A stretch of 50,786 bases of DNA from Corallococcus terminator (GTDB lineage: Bacteria; Myxococcota; Myxococcia; Myxococcales; Myxococcaceae), in assembly GCF_003611635.1 (NCBI RefSeq), contig NZ_RAVZ01000021.1, forward strand, positions 1 through 50,786, read 5' to 3'. The position numbers and the translations under genes are program-made. A model generated the notes under the pieces. The model had not been told where the DNA came from. It did not search any database and was given only the letters and a program-made list of their open reading frames with translations. Positions 12,554 to 19,658 of the stretch are shown in pieces; position 1 is the stretch's first letter; every line of letters starts with the position of its first letter.

Positions 12554-14056
12554 ATGTTCAAGGAAAGCACGCATCGCCCAGGGGGGGCGCTGCTCGTCGC
12601 GCTCGGGCTCGGAGCACTGGTTGGCTGTGGAAGCGCGCCGGAGGCATCCATGCCTTCCGAGCAGACGCCTCCAGGAGAGCTGCGGCACAGCGAGGCCGAA
12701 CTCTATGTGGCGTCCTCCACCCTGTGGTGGCCGCTGACCATCCCCGTGTGTTGGGAGAACCCGGCCGCTGGCAACGCCACCCAGCGACAGTGGGTGCGCG
12801 ACGCGGTGACGCGCACGTGGGAGGCGAATTCGAGCGTGCGCTTCTACGGCTGGGGGACGTGTCCGTTCTCGTCCAGCGGCGTCCGCATCAACATCAGCGA
12901 CGTGGGCCCGCACGTGAAGGCGCTGGGCAACGGCCTCAACGGCAGGGCCCAGGGCATGGTGCTCAACTTCACGTTCGCCAACTGGGGCCAGTCGTGCGCC
13001 AGCACCCTCAAGTACTGCATCGACGCCATCGCGGTGCATGAGTTCGGTCACGCGCTGGGCTACGCCCACGAGCAGAACCGTCCGGACCGGCCCTCCACCT
13101 GCACCGAGCCCGCGCAGGGCTCCTCGGGTGACTGGCTCATCGGGCCGTGGGACCTGGGCTCCGTGATGAACTACTGCAACCCGGCCTGGAACGGGGATGG
13201 CAACCTGAGCGCCACGGATGTCCAGGGCGCGAAGATCACCTACGGCGTCCCCTGGGAGTCGCTGGGCGGCGGCCTGGCCTCCAGCCCGGGAGCTTCGTCC
13301 TGGGGCGCGAACCGGCTGGACGTGTTCGTCCGGGGCCTGGACAGCCAGATGCACCACCAGTACTGGGCGGGCGCGGGCTGGAGCGGCTGGGGCCTCCACA
13401 CGGGCGTCATTACGTCCGACCCGGCGGCGGTGAGCTGGGGCTCCAATCGCATCGACGTGTTCGCGCGCGGCTCGGACAACTCCATGCTCCACAAGGCGTG
13501 GGATGGCACCGGCTGGAGCCCCTGGTACTCGCAGGGCGGCGCCTTCAACTCCGGCCCGGCCGTGGCGTCCTGGGGCACGAACCGGCTGGACGTGTTCGGC
13601 CAGGGCCTGGACAACCAGCTCTACCAACAGTCCTGGACGGGCTCGGGCTGGACGTCGTGGAACGTGATTCCGGGCGTCGTGACGTCGGACCCTGCCGCGG
13701 TGAGCTGGGGCCCCAACCGCATCGACCTGTTCGCCAGGGGCACCGACAACACCTTCCTCCACAAGTACTGGAATGGCACGGCCTGGAGCGCCTGGGGCTC
13801 GCTGGGCGGCACCTTCACCTCCGCTCCGGCGGTGGCCTCGCGCGGCGTGAACAAGCTGGACGTGTTCGGCCGGGGCGCGGACAACAGCCTCTGGGTGAAC
13901 TCGTGGACGGGCTCCGGCTGGAGCGGCTGGAACTGGCTCGGCGGTGAGATGACCTCCGCGCCCGATGTCGCGAGCTGGGGTCCCGGCCGGCTGGATGTCT
14001 TCTATCGCGGCACGGACAACACCCTGCGCCACTCCTGGTTCAACAACGGCTGGTAG
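12554..14056 (+). CDS. Secreted zinc metalloprotease with PLL-like lectin propeller
   Basis: Lipoprotein of 500 aa: signal ending ALVG|C25, ATG preceded by GAGGGG. The metzincin-type catalytic domain (~45-230) contains [11 protein letters not shown] (162-172; three His ligands and E163) and a likely Met-turn SVMNYC (about 208). From ~235 to the end there are six copies of a ~45-residue unit with core W-G-x-N-R-[LI]-D-V-F and an ending G-x-G-W-x-x-W, the signature of PLL/DUF346-type fucose-binding-lectin β-propellers. A seventh blade may form from the segment linking the two domains. Likely role: a surface protease targeted to glycans, for example in predation; this is inference from domain order. 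No partner genes. Confidence 0.87.
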
Positions 14057-14082: not shown

Positions 14083-14877
14083 TCAGGCCTTGGGCGGGCG
14101 CTGTTCGGAGCGGCGCCGGAGCCAGTTGCGAAGGAAGGCCTTCACCTCCGGGTGCTGTGATTGCTTGAAGTGCTCCGGCGGGCCGTACTCGACAATCAGT
14201 CCCTCGTGCATCAGGGCCAGGTTGTCCGCGGTGCCGAAGGCGGACGCCACGTCCGGGGTGATGACCAGCGACGTGGCGCCCAACTGCTGCTTGCCCTTGG
14301 TGATGATCTCATTGACGGCCGCGGTGGTGAGCGGATCCAGACCGGCGGTGGGGTCGTCGTAGAGGAGGATTTTCGGCTGGAGGATGGTCGCGCGCGCGAA
14401 GCCCACGCGCTTCTGCATGCCGCCGGACAGCTCTCCCGGGAAGCGCGTGGCCGCATGCGACAGGCCCACCTTCTCCAGCGTCTGGTTCACCAGCTTGGTG
14501 ATTTCCGGCTCGGGCGTGTTGGTGCGCTCGCGCAGCGGGAACGCCACGTTGTCGAAGACGTTGAGCGAGTCGAAGAGCGCGTTGGCCTGGAAGAGGATGC
14601 CCAGCTTGCGGCGCATCTGGTTGAGCGCGGGCTCGTTCATCTTCGCCACCTCCTCGCCCTCCACCAGCACCACGCCCTTGTCGGGACGGATGAGCCCCAT
14701 GATGTGCTTCATCAGCACCGTCTTGCCGGAGCCGGAGACGCCCATCAGCACGCAGGTCGTGCCCTCCGGCACCACCAGGCTCACACCCCGGAGCGCCGGC
14801 TGGCCGCCGAAGGACTTGTAGAGGTCCTTCACCTCGATGGTCAGCTTCGGCGTCGTCTCACGGCTCGTGTCACTCAT
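14083..14877 (-). CDS. Mla-type ABC transporter ATP-binding protein with altered catalytic residues
   Basis: ATPase subunit of the MlaF/Mkl family, which powers phospholipid transport between the membranes together with MlaE permease and MlaD. 264 aa. Walker A GVSGSGKT (46-53), Q-loop LFQ (Q97), signature LSGGMQKR (150-157) and D-loop GLDP are intact. However, the catalytic Glu after Walker B is Asp (LLYDDPTAG, D175), and the switch-loop His is Pro (VITPDVAS, P208, where VTHD is normal). I read both from the DNA (GAC at the Glu position, CCG at the His position). No MlaE/MlaD gene adjoins; upstream on the same strand, 53 bp away, is a histidine kinase gene. Either ATP hydrolysis is slow or absent, or this subunit works as a heterodimer or regulator. 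Confidence 0.85.
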   Translation of the reverse strand: MSDTSRETTPKLTIEVKDLYKSFGGQPALRGVSLVVPEGTTCVLMGVSGSGKTVLMKHIMGLIRPDKGVVLVEGEEVAKMNEPALNQMRRKLGILFQANALFDSLNVFDNVAFPLRERTNTPEPEITKLVNQTLEKVGLSHAATRFPGELSGGMQKRVGFARATILQPKILLYDDPTAGLDPLTTAAVNEIITKGKQQLGATSLVITPDVASAFGTADNLALMHEGLIVEYGPPEHFKQSQHPEVKAFLRNWLRRRSEQRPPKA

Positions 14878-14930: not shown

Positions 14931-16172
14931 CTACCTGGAGGTCGCCAGGTCTTCTGGCAGCGCCAACTCGAAGCGCGTGCCATCCCCCGGTCTCGACGTC
15001 ACCTCCAGGGTGCCTCCGTGGGCCTCGGCGATGCGACGCGCGAGGAACAGGCCGATTCCCAGCCCCGTGGAGCCAGGGCCCCTCGCGAAGCGTTCAAAAA
15101 GGGTGGGAAGCTGCTCGCCGGGGATTCCCGGCCCCTCGTCGATGACCGCGAGGCGGGCCCAGGGCCCCTCCAGACGCCGCTGCATCTGCACATCGACGAG
15201 CACGGGAAGCCCCGGCGGTGAGTGCTTCAGCGCGTTCGCCACCAGATTCTCCAGCGCCTGACGCAGGCGCTCGGGGTCCGCCAGCATCACCAGCTCCTCG
15301 GGGCCCCGGTAGTTCACCGGATGTCCGGGCGTGTTCGCGGTGGAGGCCACCTCCCGCGCGAGCCCCGCCACATCCACCGGCTGGGGGCGCAACGTGAAGA
15401 GCCCCTGGTCCAGGCGCCCCACGTCCAGCAGGTCCTGGATGAGCCGGGTGAGGGAGCGCAGGGACGCAGCCGCGCCATTCGCATCCCGCTGGTCCTCGAC
15501 GCTCTGGTTGCGCGTGGCCCGCCGCTGGATGAGCTGGATGCGAGCCTGGAGCGGCAGCAGGTAGTTGGCCATGTCGTGGGCCAGCACGGTGATGAGCTCC
15601 TCCGCCGCGGCCCGGCGGGCCTGCTTCACCGCCAGGTTCGTCAGCTCCTGCACCAGCTCCACCCGGTGGGCCACCAGGCCCACCCAGCGCGCCACCGCCT
15701 GGAGGAAGCGCAGGTCGCCCTGCGTGAAGAAGTCATTCCGGGCCGACGTCACGGCCAGCACGCCCCGGGTCTCCATGCCGATGGGCAGGGGCACCATCAC
15801 GGAGGAGCGGGCCCCCAGCCGGTGCTTGATGCCGGGAAGCTCCTCCGGATCCTCCTCGTGACGGCCCGTGATGAAGGGCGCTTCCGTTTCATACACCTGG
15901 ACGGCACGGCCCCCGTTGGCGAGCTGAAGCCGGTCCAGGCCCAACGACTTCTGGAGGCGGGCCATGGGCGTGTCGCTCGTCCCGACCGCGACCAGGCACT
16001 GGGTGCTCGTGTCGAGGAGGAAGACGTCCACCTTGTCCGCCTTCAGCAGCTCCGAGACAAGCTGGCCCACCGTGTTCAGGGTCGGTTGGAGTTCCGCGGC
16101 GGGAAGGGCCAGCAGGCCCTCCAGTGCCTGCAACCGTGCATCCGTCTCGGTCTCCGCCACCGGGTCGCTCAC
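14931..16172 (-). CDS. GAF-domain sensor histidine kinase
   Basis: Soluble-looking two-component sensor, about 413 aa. A GAF domain lies at ~15-175 (VDVFLLDTSTQCLVAVG ... VMVPLPIGMETRGVLAV). The dimerisation/phosphoacceptor helix has AEELITVLAHDMANYL with phosphoacceptor His at about 199. HATPase: N-box ENLVANALKH, G1 DEGPGIP, F-box LFERFARG and G2 GLGIGLFLARRI. I chose GTG at 16172; codons upstream, back to a GTG overlapping the CHAT stop (16265, GTGA), have clearly lower third-position GC, though that start would be coupled. No response regulator is adjacent. It is the fifth gene of the sigma/CHAT cluster. Signal unknown; GAF domains bind small molecules or redox cofactors. Confidence 0.85.
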   Translation of the reverse strand: MSDPVAETETDARLQALEGLLALPAAELQPTLNTVGQLVSELLKADKVDVFLLDTSTQCLVAVGTSDTPMARLQKSLGLDRLQLANGGRAVQVYETEAPFITGRHEEDPEELPGIKHRLGARSSVMVPLPIGMETRGVLAVTSARNDFFTQGDLRFLQAVARWVGLVAHRVELVQELTNLAVKQARRAAAEELITVLAHDMANYLLPLQARIQLIQRRATRNQSVEDQRDANGAAASLRSLTRLIQDLLDVGRLDQGLFTLRPQPVDVAGLAREVASTANTPGHPVNYRGPEELVMLADPERLRQALENLVANALKHSPPGLPVLVDVQMQRRLEGPWARLAVIDEGPGIPGEQLPTLFERFARGPGSTGLGIGLFLARRIAEAHGGTLEVTSRPGDGTRFELALPEDLATSR

Positions 16173-16261
16173 GAGCCAAGGGTGGGGATCACTCCCTTCC
16201 GGTGCCACCCGTGCCGTCGGCCCGCCCCCCGCACCTCGGGCGGCCAGGCGTCCCTGCCCGG

Positions 16262-19153
16262 TCACGCCTTCGCGCGAGACCTCCGCCACCACCAGAAGCC
16301 GCCCACGACCAGGGCGACGGCGCAGAGGAGCGCGAACAGGTTCCAGGCTCGTAACGAACCCGTGATGTGCGCGGCCTTCGCTTCGGGTGCAGGCACGGGG
16401 ACCAGCGCCGCATCCCCCATCACCACGAGCCCCGCCCAGGCGGCCGCGGGCTGACCGTCCTCCCAGGCCTCGCGCTGGGCGGAACGCAGGGCCAGGGACA
16501 CGCCCTGCCCCGACGCCAGATGTCTGTAATAGCGCTCCAGGAGCCACGCGGCCTCGGCGTCGCGCATGGGCCACAGGCTCGCCACCACGGCATGCGCTCC
16601 AGCTTCGAAGAAGGCCCTCGCGAGGCTCAGCACCCCTTCCCCCGCGAGCAGCGCGCCGGACGCGCCCTGACAACTGGAGAGCACCACCAGTGCGTCCCCC
16701 AGTTTCAACTCCGAGATCTCCCGGGGCTGGAGCAGGCCGTCCTCCTGCGCCGCGCCCGGGGCCAGCACCAGCGCGGACCGCTCGGGGGCCTCGACGTCGA
16801 CGACGGCGTGCGCGGCCAGGTGGAGGATGCGCACGTCGTCCAACGCGGTGGCCTTGAGGGCCTGCTCGGAGGCCTCCGCGCCCACCAGCAGGCGCGGCCT
16901 CACGGCGGTGTCCTCCAGCGACGCCTCCACGGTGTGCCCTTCGCGCCTGGCTTCTGGGAGCGCGCCCAGGCTCGCGGTCTCACCGAACACGCCGCCTCGC
17001 GCGGAGGCCACCACCGTCGCGCCCTCCGGGGCAGCACTCCGGTCCGGATCCGCCAGGACCAGGGCCTGGCCTCCCAGAGGCCTCGTGGACCGCTCCCTCC
17101 AGTGGTGCAGCAGGCTCGCGGAGGGCACCAGCGCGAGTTCGTACCGGGCGATCAACGGCGGACCGTCCACGCGCTCCCGCAACGCGGCGAAGGCCAGGTC
17201 ATGCAGCGGCCCGTCCGGCACGAGCAACAGGCGGGAGACGCGCTGCGGAAGCTCCCGCAGCGCGGGGCCGAGCAGTTGCGCATGCAGCGCGGCGGCGGCA
17301 CCCGCCTCCGAACCGTCACGCCGTTCGATGAGGCCCGACAGGAGCGCCACGGCGGGACGCAGCCGCGCACGCTCAGGGATGCGGTGCGCGCGCGTGCCCT
17401 CCCGGGTCACGGCCAGCACCCAGGCGCCTCCCGCGCGCTCCGCCTGGAGATCCTGGTCCGCGCCCACGAGGAAGACGAGCAGCGCCTCGTCGTCGCCCAG
17501 ACGCTGCTCCGTCTGCTCCAGCGAGGCGAACTGGACCGCGGCATGCCGGGGCGAGAGACGCAGCTCCTGCTCCCGGCGCTCCAGCTCCTGGAGTTCCCCC
17601 AGCAGGCGCGTGCGCTCGGGCGCGGAGAGCTCCTTTCCGAGCAGTCGCCGCTGGGTGGCGGACAGGTCGCGCAGCACGCCGGCCCGCTGCTCCCGGCGCT
17701 CCGGCGCGTCCTCCCCGGCGGCCAACGCACGGGAAGCCACGAGCGCTTCGAACAGGGTCCTCGCCCGCAGGCGCTCGCTCACGGTGAAGGCGCGCTCCAG
17801 GGCTTCCCGGGGTGGTACGACGGCAGCCTCACCGGCCTCCAGCGTACGGCCGGCGAGCCGGTGGTAGTCGCTCGCCCAACCGGAGAACAGCTCGGCCTGA
17901 CTGGAGGCGTCGCGCTGCAACTGGCGCAGCACCTCCACCGCGTCGAGCGCGCGCTCCGCCTGTCGCAGCGCCTCCGGCAAGGGCCGCGTGCGGAAGGCCA
18001 CCATCGAGTGCGCCCTCCACGCCGGGGCGAGGTAGAGCGGGTTGTCGTGTTCGGCGGCGAGGCGCAGGGCCTCGTCCGCGTCGTGCTCGGCGGCGACGGC
18101 GGCGGCGGCATCCCCCCTGGCGCGGCGCTCGGCGCGCGTCCACAGACAGGAGATGCGGCGCTCGGGCAACCCCGTCTTTCGTGCGATGTCGATGCAGCGC
18201 TCCAGGAACGCCTCCGCGTCGCGCCGCTCCTCCGGACCGTCGCCCAGCAGCTCCGCCACGAGGCGCAGGGACATCGCCTCGAAGGCCTTGCTGCCCGCGC
18301 GTTCGGCCGCCGCGAGCGCCTCCCGCGCGAGCCGCAGCAGTTCCGGACGGCCTCCCGGTTCGGGGCGTTCCTCGTGTCGCAGCAGCGCGAGGTTCGCCAC
18401 GGCCAGACGCACGCGCGCTTCCGTGCCCGCGTCCCGGGTGCGCCGCGCGAGCTCCGCGAGCCTCCCGTACGCGTCCAGCGCCTCGTCCAGGCGTCCCAGG
18501 TTCACGCTCACCGTGGCCAGGGGACTCAGCAGTTGCTTCTTCATGCCGTCGGTGCCCCCGGGAAAGGTGAGGGCCTCCGCGCGCTTGAGGAGCAGATAGG
18601 CGCGCCCCAGGTCCTGGCCCAGGTCGGAGAGTTCGGCCGCCTCCAGGATGAGCGCTCGCACCTGCAAGCGCGCGTCACCGGAGGCCCGGGCCACCTCGCC
18701 CACCCGCAGGACCCACTGGTGCGCTTCCTCTGCCCGCCCCAGCATCCCCAGCACGCTGCGCAGGTTGATGCCGGCCATCACTTCGCCCTCCGCGTCCCCC
18801 CGGCGCCGGAACGCGAGGGCCGCGTGACGGTAGGACGCTTCGGCCTGGCGGGGCTCGGACAGCAGCTCCAGATGGCCCAGGACCAGCGTGAGCCAGGGAC
18901 GATCCGGGTGACGCTCGATGAGCCCCTGGAGCCTGCGCCGGGCCTCGTCGCGCCCCTCCAGTCCCTGGGCCTCTCGGAAGAAGCACATCGCCGCTTCGGG
19001 GCCCTCCGGGTGGGCAAGGAAGCCCTCCTCGCACCGGGCCAGCGCGGGGGGCTCCGCGGGAGGGGCGGCCCCCGCGAGGCAACACAGGGTCAGCCCCACC
19101 ACGAAGGTGAGGAGCCCCGGTCGCCTCGCGTGCTGTCGCCGCCCTCCGGACAC
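16262..19153 (-). CDS. Exported, membrane-anchored TPR-CHAT domain protease
   Basis: About 963 aa. GTG at 19153 is chosen: GAGGAG lies 4-5 nt upstream and it gives a hydrophobic export signal at ~12-32 (LLTFVVGLTLCCLAGA). Residues ~40-440 are helical and TPR-like (AxYRHAALAFRRRGD and similar). The C-terminal CHAT caspase-like peptidase domain has the dyad HLAAH (H782) and VLSSCQG (C828), plus the GEGVLSLARAFFEAGA and VVASLWPM family motifs. A transmembrane helix (~936-957) ends in a basic tail. So the protease lies outside the cytoplasm, anchored at its C-terminus, unless the N-terminal helix remains. It follows a small exported protein by 1 nt and lies in the ECF sigma operon. CHAT proteases cleave partners in defence or stress pathways; the target here is unknown. 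Confidence 0.85.
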   Translation of the reverse strand: MSGGRRQHARRPGLLTFVVGLTLCCLAGAAPPAEPPALARCEEGFLAHPEGPEAAMCFFREAQGLEGRDEARRRLQGLIERHPDRPWLTLVLGHLELLSEPRQAEASYRHAALAFRRRGDAEGEVMAGINLRSVLGMLGRAEEAHQWVLRVGEVARASGDARLQVRALILEAAELSDLGQDLGRAYLLLKRAEALTFPGGTDGMKKQLLSPLATVSVNLGRLDEALDAYGRLAELARRTRDAGTEARVRLAVANLALLRHEERPEPGGRPELLRLAREALAAAERAGSKAFEAMSLRLVAELLGDGPEERRDAEAFLERCIDIARKTGLPERRISCLWTRAERRARGDAAAAVAAEHDADEALRLAAEHDNPLYLAPAWRAHSMVAFRTRPLPEALRQAERALDAVEVLRQLQRDASSQAELFSGWASDYHRLAGRTLEAGEAAVVPPREALERAFTVSERLRARTLFEALVASRALAAGEDAPERREQRAGVLRDLSATQRRLLGKELSAPERTRLLGELQELERREQELRLSPRHAAVQFASLEQTEQRLGDDEALLVFLVGADQDLQAERAGGAWVLAVTREGTRAHRIPERARLRPAVALLSGLIERRDGSEAGAAAALHAQLLGPALRELPQRVSRLLLVPDGPLHDLAFAALRERVDGPPLIARYELALVPSASLLHHWRERSTRPLGGQALVLADPDRSAAPEGATVVASARGGVFGETASLGALPEARREGHTVEASLEDTAVRPRLLVGAEASEQALKATALDDVRILHLAAHAVVDVEAPERSALVLAPGAAQEDGLLQPREISELKLGDALVVLSSCQGASGALLAGEGVLSLARAFFEAGAHAVVASLWPMRDAEAAWLLERYYRHLASGQGVSLALRSAQREAWEDGQPAAAWAGLVVMGDAALVPVPAPEAKAAHITGSLRAWNLFALLCAVALVVGGFWWWRRSRAKA

Positions 19154-19154
19154 G

Positions 19155-19658
19155 TCACTCCTCGACTTCCACCCAGCAGCCCTCCACCGTGACGGGCTCC
19201 GGCATGGTGGTGGTCGGGTCCTTGGCCGGCGCCAGGCAGACGGCCCTCTTCGGAGGCGGATCACTCGGATCTTCCCGTTCGAGGACCAGGACGCCGGCGG
19301 ACATCTGCAGGCGGCTTGGCAGCAGGACGAGCTGCGCGCGGACACCGGCGCTCGAGGGCGCCCGGGCCGTCAACCGCAGGGGGGACCCCGGCCCCACGGT
19401 TCCCGTGACGGTCGCGAGCACGACGCCCCGGTCACTCAGGATGCGCAAGGTCACCGGCACCGCGGGCCCCGTGCGCAGCACGCCCGCGTCCACGACGGAG
19501 GCCACCACCGTGTCGTTCGCGGAACCCACCAGGACATCCGTCGTCACCAGCACCGTGACCGGGGTGGGCGCGGCCTGTGCCGCCGCCGTGACACCCCACA
19601 AGAGCGCCACCACCGCCAACACCCGCCCCCATCGTCCCTGCGCATTGATTGTCTTCAT
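19155..19658 (-). CDS. Small exported protein of unknown function
   Basis: 167 aa from ATG at 19658, with GGGGA about 5-6 nt upstream. Signal peptide cleaved after AQA (residues ~14-33). The mature part is β-rich: LVGSANDTVVASVVDAG..., then alternating hydrophobic strands, resembling an Ig-like or carbohydrate-binding sandwich, with a Cys pair near the C-terminus (CLAPAK, GCWVEVEE). It is followed after 1 nt by the CHAT gene and preceded by the candidate anti-sigma gene, so it is probably a periplasmic partner or CHAT substrate. I recognise no family. Confidence 0.7.
   Translation of the reverse strand: MKTINAQGRWGRVLAVVALLWGVTAAAQAAPTPVTVLVTTDVLVGSANDTVVASVVDAGVLRTGPAVPVTLRILSDRGVVLATVTGTVGPGSPLRLTARAPSSAGVRAQLVLLPSRLQMSAGVLVLEREDPSDPPPKRAVCLAPAKDPTTTMPEPVTVEGCWVEVEE

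Follow-up and report, generated by a model that had tools for sequence, protein, structure and literature searches.

The window, that is, the whole stretch of 50,786 nucleotides that was analysed (bases 1-50786 of contig C133, in a genome of 10.35 Mb and 863 contigs), encodes on its minus strand an MlaF/Mkl-type orphan ABC ATPase (14083..14877; 264 aa, ATG start, open reading frame running from 14877 to 14083), in which an Asp stands at the position of the catalytic Glu and a Pro at that of the switch His. This D/P pair is more than chance. The pattern of kept and exchanged motifs suggests that the protein still grips ATP and serves as a slow or regulatory part, not as a motor.

The window protein and its catalytic positions

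The window protein matches the Pfam family ABC_tran (2.9e-31), and its best NCBIfam model is MlaF, with a score of 190.6 bits that lies below the cut-off of 441 for the equivalog NF008809. The AlphaFold monomer model of the protein (mean pLDDT 88.5) has the MlaF chain 6xbd_I as its top fold match in the PDB (TM-score 0.89/0.90, 37% identity), and by sequence alone the ATPase of the mycobacterial Mce1 complex (8fed_G) is the top PDB chain. The protein is 50% identical to the operonic MlaF of its own genome and 93% identical to its match in Corallococcus praedator (L060). In trees it groups with myxobacterial MlaFs. It lies within the Mkl/MlaF sequence family, yet by its operon, catalytic-residue and model-score features it is no MlaF.

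The side chains of the catalytic Glu and the switch His take part in ATP hydrolysis in ABC ATPases. The earlier note had read D175 (GAC) after Walker B and P208 (CCG) at the switch-His position, with Walker A and the signature intact, and the minus-strand open reading frame bears out both statements. Asp175 is encoded by GAC at 14353..14355 and Pro208 by CCG at 14254..14256 (both on the minus strand), and each of these residues is found in 71/71 distinct rows of clades A and B, the two groups of closely related genes described below. Walker A (GVSGSGKT, residues 46-53; 14719..14742, minus strand) is intact, with K52 in 71/71 of the same rows, and sequence alignment shows that the Q-loop residue Gln97 (14587..14589, minus strand) and the ABC signature LSGGM (residues 150-154; 14416..14430, minus strand) are also retained. 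The Walker B Asp is D174, and the D-loop Asp is intact. The sequence match with 6xbd_I pairs residues 14-250 of the query with 9-245 of the chain; the two segments are of equal length, and with the match taken as ungapped and an offset of 5, K52 corresponds to Lys47 of MlaF, D175 to Glu170 and P208 to residue 203, which we take to be the switch His. In E. coli, the MlaF mutants Lys47Ala and Glu170Gln gave no complementation (PMC7367683).

Conservation and branching of the orphan lineage

Relatives of the window gene were searched for in 145 genomes of the order. A gene with 69-100% identity (clade A) is present in 54/145 genomes and one with 61-64% identity (clade B) in 18/145; clade A is absent from 2 of the 18 clade B genomes, and 56 genomes carry at least one D/P gene. 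All 72 genes of at least 61% identity in the 145 genomes have D175 together with P208 (clade A, 54/54; clade B, 18/18). Below these two clades, the further matches among those listed for the 145 genomes have at most 56% identity, and no match fell into this identity gap when 195 genomes of the phylum, including many of the 145, were searched. For the homologue rows overall, E is present at position 175 in 89/112 and H at position 208 in 81/112. Synonymous variation is seen at both sites (GAC/GAT at 175; CCG/CCC/CCA at 208), and the Walker A Lys, the Q-loop Gln, the signature residues SGGM, the Walker B Asp and the D-loop Asp are identical in 71/71 distinct D/P rows. When 59 D/P rows were compared with 19 canonical rows of the order, nine positions were fixed differently, positions 175 and 208 included, and these are the two of the nine whose side chains have an established role in hydrolysis.

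The median dN/dS is 0.166 in 16 Corallococcus rows (highest pair 0.28), 0.262 in 48 clade A rows (highest pair 0.62) and 0.288 in 11 clade B rows (highest pair 0.54), and for the canonical paralogue three pairs gave values of 0.24-0.35. Because the pair is carried by 72/72 genes and the median dN/dS is 0.17-0.29, the D/P residues are neither an error nor a sign of decay. Sequencing error or a decaying gene, for which no point in favour was found, is thus rejected as an explanation of vanishingly small probability: the same residues recur in separately assembled genomes, the frames are open and the median dN/dS is low. The earlier note had named a re-sequencing result with Glu and His as grounds for giving up its claim; the equivalent test, in which the same pair was found in 72/72 orthologues and close paralogues, left the claim standing. 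Its other ground was a homologue with these residues that is proven active, and none with the D/P pair was found in the open-licence papers covered.

In careful trees of the MlaF paralogs, from which sites 175 and 208 were left out, the D/P genes and second copies of other Myxococcaceae form one clade (support 100/100), referred to here as the orphan lineage. In clade C, from one Myxococcaceae genus (genes L214, L248, L253, L255, L256 and L257), four genomes show D/N, a fifth D/Q and a sixth N/N (L257), so that Asp or Asn replaces the catalytic Glu, and Asn or Gln the switch His. The six genes of clade D, from two genera, keep E/H, and one further gene of the orphan lineage carries E/Y. Clades C and D are sisters (support 100/99 and 98/96 in two trees). 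In an initial tree from which clades C and D were absent, the D/P rows came out as one clade (support 100). After these clades were added, A and B stood apart in the best trees, and a single D/P clade was set aside, though the union of A and B was not rejected (p-AU 0.24). Because of this latter result, it is possible that the D/P pair arose either once or twice. On these trees, the window gene represents a single branch of a lineage in which the catalytic residues have changed in several ways.

Gene neighbourhoods, permeases and orphan status

Profile searches, using models built from tblastn hits, were employed to detect MlaE and MlaD, as tblastn alone missed at least one MlaD (L117). Four MlaE and three MlaD matches were found in the genome, all on contigs C15, C264 and C73 and none on the contig of the window, in agreement with the earlier note, which had reported no MlaE/MlaD neighbours. 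The canonical partner for which that note had proposed a search is also present, as E/H copies lie beside MlaE and MlaD on C15 and C264. Neither MlaE nor MlaD was detected in the flanks of 71/71 distinct D/P rows, 36 of which have at least 2.5 kb on both sides, or in the available flanks of clades A-D and the E/Y row (at least 2.5 kb on both sides in 25/53 distinct rows of clade A, 11/18 of B, 3/6 of C, 3/6 of D and the E/Y row). Outside the orphan lineage, E and H are both present in 34/34 distinct myxobacterial rows (C264-type rows and an E/A gene being counted apart), and MlaE or MlaD lies within 4 kb in 29/34 of them, the flanks being too short in the other 5.

By position, each of the four MlaE genes of this genome is adjoined by an ATPase, and in 8 single-contig genomes an MlaF-type ATPase adjoins 30/30 fetched MlaE loci (of 32 MlaE matches; the remaining two are fragments of split genes). 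A dedicated spare MlaE was accordingly rejected, as there is none in the genome itself (by position) and none among the 30 loci of the 8 genomes. Since every MlaE examined already has its own ATPase, the orphan ATPase must either share a permease or work without one.

Upstream of the ATPase gene and on the same strand lies a gene for a histidine-kinase-like protein with GAF and HATPase_c domains (14931..16673, minus strand; Pfam matches on 14931-16352, start codon uncertain), whose open reading frame ends 53 bases before the ATPase start. As this protein adjoins the ATPase gene in only 5/16 genomes of the genus (most of them with 1.5-kb flanks), it was not retained as a functional partner. The window also holds a 1,027-aa open reading frame with a CHAT domain at its C-terminus (16262-19345, minus strand) and, convergent to the ATPase gene, one of 500 aa with a short Astacin (M12A) match and a DUF346 repeat (12554-14056, plus strand). 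For clade A, no neighbour family occurs in more than 4 of the 20 loci clustered, and no conserved link to lipid transport was found among them. In clade B, a protein of ~1,030-1,080 aa is encoded directly upstream of the ATPase in 9/11 loci with flanks, and a same-strand ~330-aa protein followed by one of ~460 aa lies downstream in 11/11; this gene run was seen at L190 (3539-11009) and at similar loci among L181-L191. In L190, the only clade B locus profiled, the upstream protein has an aminotransferase domain and a weak methyltransferase match, the ~330-aa protein has methyltransferase matches below the Pfam cut-offs and the ~460-aa protein is a WS/DGAT acyltransferase. Because of these neighbours, the context of clade B hints at lipid metabolism.

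On contig C73 of this genome, a single run of genes (L194, 3910-7938) encodes an ATPase domain NBD1, two MlaE, a second ATPase domain NBD2 and MlaD. NBD1 has the Walker B sequence ADDP (Asp for Glu), no switch His and an intact LSGGM, and NBD2 has Glu and His intact and LGPGA instead of LSGGM. These motifs recur in 13/13 NBD1 and 13/13 NBD2 rows, which represent seven genes of each, most of them seen from two loci, and C73-type motifs are present in 7/8 complete genomes, the eighth being without such an MlaE pair. To judge from its motifs, the C73 run is arranged like a degenerate heterodimer within an operon of MCE type and apparently encodes an asymmetric MCE transporter; an asymmetric MCE motor is thus likely in these bacteria. 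NBD1 is ~41% identical to the window protein over part of the domain, and both have an Asp-Asp Walker B, no switch His and an intact LSGGM. However, NBD1 is encoded together with two MlaE, MlaD and a partner ATPase bearing LGPGA.

Orphan ATPases with changed catalytic residues are also seen beyond Myxococcaceae. In nine alphaproteobacterial rows the switch His is replaced by Ser, and no MlaE/MlaD was found near them (2.5 kb on both sides in six). Whole searches of six alphaproteobacterial genomes gave, in 6/6, one E/S copy without MlaE adjoining (judged from 1.5-kb flanks) and one E/H copy with it; the E/S orphans that have a canonical copy beside MlaE in the same genome are L092, L096, L107, L110, L120 and L079. 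One of the five MlaE-contact positions considered below is changed in the E/S rows (Q in 8/9, N in 1/9). A Spirochaete gene (L124, 5989-6741) is an orphan Mla-type ATPase with D/H, i.e. Asp for the catalytic Glu and the His kept; the E/H copy of the same genome (L264) has no MlaE/MlaD in its 1.5-kb flanks and was not counted. A myxobacterial gene of another family (L216) has E/A and stands alone.

Where each side offered a flank of at least 2.5 kb (107 distinct rows), 48/48 non-canonical rows are orphans and 55/59 canonical rows have MlaE/MlaD within 4 kb. Under a laxer rule, in which rows with a neighbour were kept at any flank and rows without a neighbour only with 2.5 kb, 152 rows gave 48/48 and 100/104, respectively. 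However, the pattern goes back to only 4 to 5 independent changes, of which ~3 agree with it, none is against it and one is a tie (pairs test, p 0.25). The rows had been chosen for their similarity to the window protein, and those with <38% identity or fewer than ~200 aligned residues were dropped from the 107-row table and partly from the 152-row count and the pairs test. Of the four canonical genes that are orphans, one (L070) comes from a Spirochaete and the other three belong to the E/H branch of the myxobacterial orphan lineage. A counterexample outside the table is C73 NBD1, which is degenerate yet lies beside MlaE and MlaD, and mycobacterial MceG, alone yet canonical, also speaks against a simple orphan rule (PMC9947336). 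In view of the p value, the few origins, the manner of sampling and these two cases, orphan status was rejected as a proven driver of residue loss, and the association is to be regarded as a lead. A wider reading, which we consider doubtful, is that bacteria repeatedly spin off orphan copies of Mla/MCE motors that would lose fast hydrolysis and keep ATP binding and permease docking, as exchangeable regulatory subunits. Such pseudo-ATPase subunits would make a symmetric MCE transporter asymmetric or braked. Within this repeated-spin-off reading, the alphaproteobacterial Ser-for-His change might, with the same reserve, represent an origin separate from the D/P pair of Myxococcaceae.

Possible roles of the orphan protein

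Residues R52, L96, Y108, E112 and R157 of MlaF are reported as touching the coupling helix of MlaE (PMC7784689). Their counterparts in the window protein are K57, L101, F113, E117 and R162, where K57 corresponds to R52 in E. coli. The same five residues are found in the 34 myxobacterial rows outside the orphan lineage (E117 replaced by Q/H in 3/34), and four of the five positions are invariant in the 71 distinct D/P rows, E117 being replaced by Q in 3/53 clade A rows. Further, much of the MlaF-type segment after the Q-loop is fixed in clades A and B. The positions that contact MlaB are not kept in the window protein, which may reflect only the absence of MlaB here, and the MlaE-contact positions, being largely kept in other Mkl ATPases, may be held by the fold as well as by MlaE.

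In comparison with MlaF of the MlaFEDB phospholipid transporter, the window protein has the same fold, LSGGM, Q-loop and MlaE-contact positions, but it differs in having Asp and Pro at the catalytic sites and in lacking both MlaE/MlaD neighbours and MlaB contacts. By analogy, it would most likely work like the degenerate half of an asymmetric ABC transporter (TAP, TM287/288), that is, like TAP1, TM287 and NBD1 of ABCC proteins, which we take to be the degenerate NBDs of heterodimeric ABC exporters. It shares with such NBDs an Asp for Glu together with a changed H-loop (PMC7756269) and an intact signature of its own. In human degenerate sites, the exchange of Glu for Asp ranks second in frequency, an altered Walker B Glu is often accompanied by H-loop changes, and such sites seem to hydrolyse still, at a rate much slower than transport (PMC7756269). 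However, the window protein belongs to the MCE family and not to the exporters, no partner gene adjoins it, and no partner with a degraded signature was found for it; the signature of C73 NBD2 is degraded, but NBD2 sits with its own NBD1. With MceG/Mkl (Rv0655) the window protein shares its family and the property of being encoded apart from its permeases (PMC1810536). The canonical motifs are conserved in MceG, which appears common to Mce1 and Mce4 and, in apparently serving both, provides a precedent for permease sharing (PMC9947336). However, no linked ATPase competes with MceG, whereas each MlaE examined here has its own ATPase; thus, of the features of an MceG-like shared ATPase, the separation from the permeases is found here and permeases without a linked ATPase are not. 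Isolated Mkl paralogues as such are already in print, one of them being nfa20200 of Nocardia farcinica, and the passages on it make no mention of catalytic loss (PMC1810536). Among the open-licence papers listed, no account of degenerate Mla ATPases was recognised.

Our leading explanation, which is put forward tentatively and with less than even confidence, is that the window protein is an ATP-binding subunit, slowly hydrolysing or non-hydrolysing, that joins an MlaE permease encoded elsewhere, most plausibly paired with a canonical MlaF. The motifs for ATP binding and for the ATP-sandwich dimer would be kept in it, with the two residues that drive hydrolysis exchanged. The orphan protein and a canonical MlaF together on MlaE would make the transporter asymmetric, one ATP site being degenerate and the other working; the orphan subunit would then modulate or restrain transport, not supply its power. 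The parts of this explanation differ in strength: slow hydrolysis is quite probable, docking on MlaE is a matter of about equal chances either way, and pairing with a canonical MlaF is rather doubtful. The C73 layout makes the proposed role less far-fetched, though it is no proof of it. Against pairing, the canonical MlaFs of C15 and C264 keep intact signatures, unlike the partners in classic degenerate heterodimers, whose signature is degraded. The genomes G110 and G007, taken up below, also count against it, and the leading explanation as a whole gains nothing from the clade A neighbourhoods, where no conserved link to lipid transport was seen.

Ranked next after permease sharing by pairing with MlaF, and like it possible rather than probable, is an ATP-locked homodimer outside the Mla system, in which the protein would have two slow sites and no MlaF partner, acting either as a soluble ATP-sensing switch or by competing for MlaE and blocking it. 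Such a dimer is possible because the signature and the D-loop are intact, and the absence of a spare MlaE and of MlaE/MlaD from every available flank of the D/P genes is in keeping with it. The same holds for the clade B loci, where no permease was detected and the neighbours, as profiled in L190, are of methyltransferase/aminotransferase type upstream (9/11) and of WS/DGAT type downstream (11/11). It is also favoured by the complete genome G110, which has both D/P clades: in the record, both its C15-type MlaF and its C15-type MlaE (L296) are broken up between frames, through either assembly error or decay, and both D/P genes are kept open. One other genome with a D/P gene (G007, 93% complete) gave no C15-type match, and in the other 54/56 a further match reached an E value of 1e-70 or better (these were read in part). 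However, the MlaE-contact positions and much of the segment after the Q-loop are fixed in clades A and B, and this speaks against the homodimer because a protein working without a permease would not need those contacts.

An unlikely alternative to both is that the protein is a working, slower motor, in which Asp would act as the general base and which would energise one or several permeases of the Mla/MCE type in trans, like MceG in mycobacteria. MceG provides a precedent for an unlinked Mkl ATPase (PMC1810536, PMC9947336), Asp sites can hydrolyse slowly (PMC7756269), and the D/P genes are under purifying selection. However, both catalytic positions are changed and no D/P gene has H at position 208, a related clade has N/N in L257 and Asn or Gln at 208 in its other members, and every MlaE locus examined has an ATPase of its own.

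MlaB is described as a cytoplasmic regulator of the Mla ATPase (PMC7367683). A conserved, degraded paralogue of the motor that retains the permease-contact positions would point to a second possible route of regulation, by exchange of subunits. The catalytic positions of the orphan paralogue offer directly testable mutants. In addition, as the orphan D/P protein and the C73 operon occur in the same genome, both forms of asymmetry could be studied in one laboratory organism that is non-pathogenic.
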